Below are positions 113 to 52,713 of a DNA stretch of 64,000 nt, one piece after another. The position numbers and the translations under genes were made by a program. The notes beneath the pieces were generated by a model. It ran no database searches. It was not told where the DNA came from and saw nothing but the letters and a program-made list of their open reading frames with translations. Numbering within the stretch: the stretch's first letter is position 1; each line of letters starts with the position of its first letter. The stretch spans positions 19,879,406-19,943,405 of the forward strand of contig CM055908.1 of the NCBI GenBank assembly GCA_029582155.1, given 5' to 3'. Origin of the DNA: Panopea generosa. Taxonomy: Eukaryota; Mollusca; Bivalvia; Adapedonta; Hiatellidae.

Positions 113-222
113 ACTGGAAAACTGTTACCTGTGTTCAGTGAACTCGAGATATTGGCAATGATGGTGGCCTGTCTTTGTCATGATCTGGATCATAGAGGAA
201 CAAACAACGCATTCCAAGTCAA
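113..222 (+). CDS. Pde6: Pde6 exon a ([10 protein letters not shown] metal site)
   Basis: This 110-nt exon has acceptor tttttcag|ACTGG and donor GTCAA|GTATGT. It translates as [36 protein letters not shown] and a Lys split AA|G with the next exon. It carries the PDE signature His-Asp pair (residues 23-24 of the visible product). The last 12 exon bases and the donor are the first unit of the tandem array that fills the following intron. Confidence 0.93.
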
Positions 223-3200
223 GTATGTAGTGAGAATACATATTTGTTAATTTGATAGACCAATCATTCAGAGTCAAGTATGTAGTGAGAATACATATTT
301 GTTAATTTGATAGACCAATCATTTAGAGTCAAGTATGTAGTGAGAATATATATTTGTTAATTTGATAGACCAATCATTCAGAGTCAAGTATGTAGTGAGA
401 ATACATATTTGTTAATTTGATAGACCAATCATTCAGAGTCAAGTATGTAGTGAGAATACATATTTGTTAATTTGATAGACCAATCATTCAGAGTCAAGTA
501 TGTAGTGAGAATACATATTTGTTAATTTGATAGACCAATCATTCAGAGTCAAGTATGTAGTGAGAATATATATTTGTTAATTGGACAGACCCATCATTCC
601 AAGTCAAGTATGTAGAGAGTACATATTTGTTAATTGGATAGATGGATCCTTCCAAATTAAGTATGTGGTCAGGACATGCCTTTAACTTGTAAGGCCCATC
701 ATTTCAAGGCAAGTATGTCGTCAGGACATGCCTTTGTGAACTTGTGAGGCTCATCATTTCAAGTCAAGTATATAGTCAGGACAACCTTTGTTAACTCTTT
801 AGGCCCATCAATCCAAGTCAAGTAGGCAGTCAGGACACCCTTTGTTAACTCTTAGGCCTATCAATCCAAGTTAAGTATGTAGTCAGGACATCCTTTGTTA
901 ACTTGTAAGGCTCATCATTACAAGTCAAGTATGCAGTCAGGACATCCTTTGTTAACTCTTAGGCCTATCAATCCAAGTTAAGTATGTAGTCAGGACATCC
1001 TCTGTTAACTTGTGAGGCCCATCATTCCAAGTCAAGTATGTAGTCAGGACATCCTTTGTTAGCTTGTTAGGCCCATCATTCCAAGTTAAGTATGTAGTCA
1101 GGACATCTTTTGTTAACTTGTTAGGCCCATCATTCCAAGTTAAGTATGTAGTCAGGACATCCTTTGTTAGCTTGTTAGGCCCATCATTCCAAGTTAAGTA
1201 TGTAGTCAGGACATCTTTTGTTAACTTGTTAAGCCCATCATTCCAAGTCAAGTATGTAGTCAGGGCATCTTTTGTTAACTTGTTAGGCCCATCATTCCAA
1301 GTTAAGTAGTAGTCAGGACATCCTTTGTTAACTCTTTAGGCCCATTAATCCAAGTCAAGTATGCAGTCAGGACACCGTTTGTTAACATGTTAGGCCCAAA
1401 GTATGTAGTCAGGACATCCTTTGTTAACTTGTAAGGCCCATCATTCCAAGTTAAGTATGTAGTCAGGACATCCTTTGTTAACTTGTTAGGCCCATAGTAT
1501 GTAGTCAGGACATCCTTTGTTAACTTGTAAGGCCAAACATTCCAAGTCAAGTATGTAGTCAGGACATCCTTTGTTTACTTGTTAGGCCCATCATTTCAAA
1601 TCAAGTATGTAGTCAGGACATCCTTTGTTAACTTGTTGGGCCCATCATTCCAAGTCAAGTATGTAGTCAGGACATGCCTTCATTAAATTGTAAGGCCCAA
1701 CATTCCAATTCAAGTATGCAGTCAAAACATCCTTTGTTAACATCCAAAGCCAATTAATCCAAGTTATGTATGATAATGTAGTCAGGACATCCCTTTGTTA
1801 TCTTGACATCTAGTCTGGTCAAGCTCAGGGAATTTTGTGTCAGCAAACCGTGAATATGTTCTTTTAAAAAACCTTTAAGAAAGGCTTGATTTATATCTAT
1901 ACAGTTCCACATAATAATAATTTCAAGACAGTTTGTGTCATAGTTGTGTTGTCTGTTATAGGGTTGTATCACCACTAGCAATGTTGTACAGCACATCAGT
2001 CATGGAACATCATCATTTTGACCACAGCATTATGATTCTGAACAGTGAAGTGAGTATAGATTTAATTCTGTATTTTGATCGTTAGTTTTCCAGCCCCATT
2101 AGCTAGATAGATTGAGCATGAGTTTTCCAGTCTTGGGGTTTTGGGTTCACTTCCCGGGGCTCAGCAGGCAAAGTCAAAATACTAACAGTCATTCGGATTG
2201 GACTTTCAATTAAAATATATTTATAAACCCCTACCCAAATGTTATAAATAAATATCAAAATAAAAATTGTTAAAAATTGGTTATATTTGTGGCTTAAATC
2301 GTTCAATGTATCCATATCTATAAGACTGCAACAAAAATACCAGTGGTTTCTTAATAGAAATACTACTTCAGTTTAAGATACAAACTCTTAAACATGAAAA
2401 TCTGAAAACTCTCTGTCCAACATTCTTGATCAATATACATCAATAAACAAGTCCAAAATCTTAACTTGAATACCAATACCTCTTTGTTTGCATTGAAACT
2501 TTAAAGGGACACACAGCAATTTTAAACATTTTTTTCATTTAAATTATTTTTTAGAATAGCATATGTACAGGATACAAGAATGAAGTTGGAAAACTCCAGT
2601 ATATGAGGAGGCTTTTAATTTCTGTTTTATGTTGGAAAGGGGCGTAACTCTTGGACGTATTCTTGAAAATCATTATATTTCCAGTATTTGTGGACATATG
2701 ACAAAAGGTGTCAAAATGATTCAAAGGAAACATCAATTTGTAGTTTTTGAGAATTTTTACTCATATTTTCAAAACCAGCGTGACGCCACTAGCTTTGGAA
2801 CAGATAGATTTATTCTTGAATATATATATGTTATGAAATACAAGCAATTATCACAAATATATACAAATATTAAACCGCAGTTTAACATACATTATCAATT
2901 ATATAATGTTACTGTAATAATTAGGTATGTATATATTTACAACATATATATTACACTGGATAACCTATAAAGTTTTACTTATTTCCAACAGGATCCTTAT
3001 AAAAAAAAAATATCAAGGTCTCAAAATATTGCCCATACTAGCGTTATGGACCTAATATAAGAGAGAAAAGCTACACATTATGTTACTTAAAATAAAACAA
3101 CAAGAGGACAACTCTGACTATTTGTATTTCATTTAAGATTTCAAATTTCCTAACATTCATCTGTGTTCTTGTTATTACAGAATATATATCAAATATTTAT

Positions 3201-32882: not shown

Positions 32883-52698
<19,816 letters not shown>

Positions 52699-52713
52699 AA
52701 TTGTTTCTTATCA

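Follow-up and report, generated by a model that had tools for sequence, protein, structure and literature searches.

A minisatellite over an exon-intron junction of a phosphodiesterase gene, compared with the mirages of amphioxus

Minisatellites that span exon-intron boundaries have been named "mirages" in amphioxus, where they occur in Adh3, the globin genes BflGb6 and BflGb9, troponin C (TnC) and PGBD5 (PMC3087553, PMC3902484). These arrays were reported to leave splicing undisturbed and to be unstable in length (PMC3087553, PMC3902484), and it was suggested that new intron positions could arise from them and that they might be general among cephalochordates (PMC3087553). In the human gene IFI6 (6-16), a minisatellite provides multiple splice donors, and two downstream repeat units are used, giving isoforms (Turri et al. 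1995); in the model of Rogers (cited in PMC3087553), introns are gained by tandem duplication of AG/GT proto-splice sites. Here we describe a minisatellite that repeats an exon end together with its splice donor in a cyclic-nucleotide phosphodiesterase (PDE) gene, inside which a 64,000-nucleotide stretch of DNA (hereafter the window) opens. A preliminary description of this stretch considered tandem copies of an exon-intron junction to be rarely described; the kind, however, already had a name, and the IFI6 case was known. The array belongs to this kind, and probably represents it outside cephalochordates. We found no mollusc or bivalve case of such a junction minisatellite in the literature, the coverage of which left out most subscription papers.

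The array begins inside an exon, crosses the donor and extends into the following intron, with these features:

113-222, plus strand: PDE5/6-like exon of 110 bases, ending in phase 2 of a Lys codon (translation, PF00233 match and PDB search)
1962-2049, plus strand: next exon, in frame with 113-222 (translation and alignment to PDE5)
210-1805, plus strand: minisatellite with 29 full units followed by a degraded one (Tandem Repeats Finder (TRF), wraparound alignment and unit comparison)
223-228, plus strand: putative authentic 5' splice site GTATGT, the first of 29 copies, assigned from the reading frame
248-250, plus strand: in-frame TAA, met by any transcript using a downstream donor
210-647, plus strand: proximal subfamily, units 1-8, of which units 1-7 are 55 bp long and units 2, 4, 5 and 6 are identical
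648-1754, plus strand: distal subfamily, units 9-29, mostly of about 54 bp, with a weak two-unit periodicity
1755-1805, plus strand: degraded last unit (wraparound alignment)

Exon 113-222 forms the edge of the array, and its reading frame is kept into 1962-2049 as PDE sequence. The best solved relatives of the three-exon joined piece in a PDB search were PDE5A (E 8e-34) and a cone PDE6 subunit (4e-33); the earlier label "Pde6" was too specific, since the present match does not separate the two. Wraparound alignment placed units 1-29 at 210-1754 and the degraded unit 30 at 1755-1805, and TRF called 28.8 copies of period 54 at 210-1741 and 7.9 copies of period 55 at 210-642, which confirms the roughly 29 copies first noticed. 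The first unit starts at base 210, still within the exon, and consists of 13 exon bases (210-222; the preliminary description had correctly recognised the exon end but counted 12), the donor GTATGT and further intron bases, 42 intron bases in total. The first seven units were also correctly described as spaced by exactly 55 bp (starts 210-540). The donor GT is present in all 29 full units and the exon-derived stretch is kept in 27, being mostly lost in units 23 and 25. The motif GTATGTAGT is retained in 20/29 units, slightly fewer than the "over 20" stated before, and 14 of the 29 donors, the true one among them, are identical from -3 to +6 (CAAGTATGT). When the 98 13-mers of the exon were compared with the distal unit consensus, the last four matched at 10, 11, 12 and 13 of 13 positions and the other 94 at nine at most. 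The exon end therefore resembles the unit more than by chance, in support of the earlier view that it and its donor seeded the array.

Across the 1.47 Gb genome, the exact 20-base junction has six matches, all of them inside this array. An origin from a dispersed repeat family was considered and rejected, since a genome-wide search with 234 bases of the array gave matches in the window's array alone. In two paralogues, at C2:91735178 (FQIK) and C1:69897852 (AFQQK), an intron interrupts the same codon in the same phase, each time at AA/GTAAGT (the slash marks the junction), and neither gene has a tandem array over the corresponding junction. Because the two paralogues share the intron position without an array there, we take the junction to have preceded the array. 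Within units 2-7, neighbouring units have a mean identity of 0.97; within units 9-29 the mean is 0.82 (0.86 at lag 2 in the distal units), in support of the two subfamilies and at least two rounds of expansion proposed previously. In its intron part, unit 1 is identical to units 2, 4, 5 and 6 (42/42 bases), but its exon part departs from theirs at 2/13 positions and follows the distal consensus. The pattern fits, if only weakly, a history in which coding selection held the exon while homogenization ran up to the donor.

We consider it likely, with good confidence, that the array is a mirage in the amphioxus sense, grown from a tandem duplication over the junction and tolerated neutrally. A duplication of about 55 bases would by chance have straddled the exon-intron junction, taking in 13 exon bases and, with the donor, about 42 intron bases in total. 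With reading frame and donor preserved in the outermost copy, the gene would still have been spliced and the duplication tolerated. Two or more rounds of slippage or unequal exchange may then have amplified the unit outward into the intron, with unit 1 being held by selection on its coding bases. Read in the same codon phase as the exon end, the distal 54-bp units remain open (FQVKYVV, open reading frame 1016-1309), which is easily given because their length is a multiple of three, and the 55-bp units lying between break that frame.

The TAA at 248-250 precedes all 28 downstream decoy donors examined, consistent with the earlier claim that any distal donor would read into it. From the reading frame, the first donor (223) is probably the one used. 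By its match to the donor consensus it is no stronger than the decoys, 13 of which (of 28) are identical to it over nine bases. Nor does RNA structure appear to hide the decoys: in local folding at one setting, the true donor had a probability of being unpaired of 0.005, and 23/28 decoys were at least as open. The advantage of the true site would then come from its position, next to a short exon of 110 bases and transcribed first. Among the distal units alone, identity is 0.95 in donor columns, 0.87 in exon-derived columns and 0.91 in the others; the stretch from -3 to +6 ranks 27/54 in conservation and the stretch one base further on 11/54. These comparisons give no clear sign of selection for the decoys, and the suggestion that the ladder of donors matters for splicing finds little support in them.

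Similar arrays were found elsewhere in the genome. A search with Pfam PF00233 yielded 39 PDE-domain matches. Leaving aside one that is an array copy and two others, 36 exons with 72 ends were searched for arrays lying no more than about 60-70 bases from the PDE match, so that ends far outside the match could escape. Tandem arrays straddled 5/72 exon ends, where 1.2 would be expected from the array edges counted in flanks of 30 partly overlapping loci, observed arrays included (Poisson P 0.008), and 4/71 without the window's own junction (P 0.03); two of these ends, on C17, share one exon, and the P values are rough. The straddled junctions outside the window are as follows:

C17:10208600-10214999, minus strand: PDE9-like exon with arrays at both ends (sequence reading)
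C2:91740554: acceptor of a paralogue exon, straddled by an array of 75-bp units
C1:54415694: donor of a PDE9-like exon, straddled by a 2.1-copy duplication of 27 bp

On the acceptor side of the C17 exon, a 49-bp array carries the putative acceptor and about 24 exon bases, and extends for more than 4.5 kb to the edge of the examined region. On its donor side, about 20 units of 63 and 84 bp repeat the exon end and donor, with 16 exact copies of CAGGTA and a few altered ones. Other arrays near exons proved, on reading the sequence, not to lie over the junction (C3:52695659, C17:10208807, C5:29040742 and C13:38837110, and two weak ones at C8:46617422 and C1:69892074). A genome-wide search for AGGTAAGT ladders led to an array over the end of an M1-type aminopeptidase exon, whose translation ends in LWLNEG; among short stretches read from four of the 19 donor-ladder clusters listed, this was the one clear exon, another was a possible short exon and two were ambiguous. 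Junction-spanning arrays recur at several genes of this genome, with from two copies to dozens. Tandem arrays make up about 18% of the PDE flanks examined and are therefore common in this genome.

Arrays with TTACAG/GTAAGT inside their units (C1:41817900-41818600 and C1:56270631-56276810) have acceptor-like and donor-like signals back to back, and resemble recursive splice sites in tandem.

Several other explanations of the array in the window were weighed. That the array is the older element and the source of the exon end, or that their match is coincidental, appears extremely improbable: we found no point in its favour, the exon end codes for part of a PDE and its junction recurs in two paralogues, and the perfect match of its last 13-mer stands apart from nearly all others in the exon. 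An assembly artefact is highly improbable. The identity of units 2, 4, 5 and 6 means that their number could be misassembled, but the 29 units carry many private substitutions and indels, and similar arrays exist at other loci of the genome. The repeated donors could instead be functional, as a ladder of U1 sites or as alternative donors that tune PDE splicing or expression through premature-stop transcripts, in the manner of IFI6, whose minisatellite provides donors that are used. The invariance of GT in every full unit, the high identity of the donor columns over the whole array and the thirteen decoys that match the true donor would favour this. However, the donor stretch is not the best conserved in the distal units, every decoy examined runs through the stop at 248, and the amphioxus mirages were reported not to disturb regular splicing (PMC3087553, PMC3902484), so that we judge a function of this sort unlikely.

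Some observations do weigh against a neutrally tolerated duplication. Across the full set of 29 units, conservation is highest in the donor columns (0.96, against 0.87 for exon-derived and 0.86 for other columns). The contrast between the exon and intron parts of unit 1 (2/13 vs 0/42) is weak (about 0.05 in a hand calculation) and could reflect one event. The number of straddled PDE exon ends exceeds expectation, and donor ladders are 2.4 to 3.3 times commoner than their reversed controls (6910:2067, 5538:1907 and, for AGGTGAGT, 3175:1325), against a ratio of only 1.12 between the single word AGGTAAGT and its reverse (83262:74158). The last two could mean that minisatellites of this lineage arise preferentially at splice junctions, for instance through co-transcriptional DNA breaks, and not just by random hits that were tolerated; this would modify the explanation by tandem duplication, not replace it. 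The ladder counts are, however, counts of matches and not of arrays, and are swollen by dispersed repeat families that the searches have in common. Among the matches listed for the first 56 Mb of C1 there were 19 donor and 9 control clusters, and both sets included dispersed repeat families. The AGGTGAGT ladders take in several of the same dispersed loci, the ladders of an acceptor word are barely enriched (6528:5527), and the single-word baseline covers AGGTAAGT alone. The exon sample is a single gene family, chosen through the window, in which two PDE9-like ends lie on one exon, and its null was drawn from partly overlapping loci. We thus see a preference for junctions as possible, though less probable than its absence, and most likely the junction arrays arose neutrally, as by-products of tandem duplications in a genome rich in repeats.

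One dispersed minisatellite family with TGTGTCAAGGTAAGTTT-like units was seen at C1:28957012, 28978112, 41582918, 47250401 and 51920953; it inflates the donor-ladder counts.

The PDE9-like genes bear on the fate of intron positions. Relative to its C1 paralogue, the C17 gene has the intron that follows GYNN displaced downstream by 7 bases: the junction reads NNAYQ/INAK in the former, and in the latter NNT with a split codon (AC/A), then YQINAR. The C1 paralogue carries its two-copy duplication over this junction of its own, and it is possible that in this pair the intron slid at a junction with tandem copies. A wider proposal, namely that minisatellites of this genome are repeatedly born at splice junctions, whether donor or acceptor, and that such arrays move intron positions, is less likely than not. 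If true, the PDE9-like pair would show in progress what has been proposed from amphioxus, the creation of new intron positions by mirages.

The host assembly measures 1.47 Gb, with 19 large contigs of 42-101 Mb and a next one of 8.6 Mb. The amphioxus genome has about 0.5 Gb. We counted at least 150 C1q domains in the host genome (150/150 of those scored, among 621 candidates). A GFP search of the host genome gave no match, and the control genomes were silent too; amphioxus is reported to have 16 GFP-like genes. Genome size and the C1q and GFP searches thus speak against an amphioxus host, and 19 chromosomes with a very large C1q family would suit a heterodont bivalve. Several mirages in one apparently molluscan genome suggest that such arrays originate wherever tandem repeats are abundant. 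They also offer natural tests of how the spliceosome chooses among many identical donors, and of whether tandem duplication shifts introns.

Elsewhere in the window, on the minus strand, the translations at 43861-44127 and 52426-52707 resemble one type of kinase, which we take to be a type II phosphatidylinositol 4-kinase.

Compared with the systems described so far, the array shares with the Rogers model a tandem duplication involving splice signals; unlike in that model, there is no new intron here, the intron position being common to two paralogues. As in IFI6, a minisatellite at an exon end repeats the splice donor, but whereas the IFI6 donors give isoforms, every downstream donor here would bring in a stop. 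The closest likeness is to the amphioxus mirages: the donor or acceptor side is repeated, the authentic exon stands at the edge of the array, and edge units escape homogenization. The array differs from the BflGb6 globin haplotypes, which have 6 and 3 copies, in having 30, and from the amphioxus mirages as a whole in that its host probably belongs to a different phylum.
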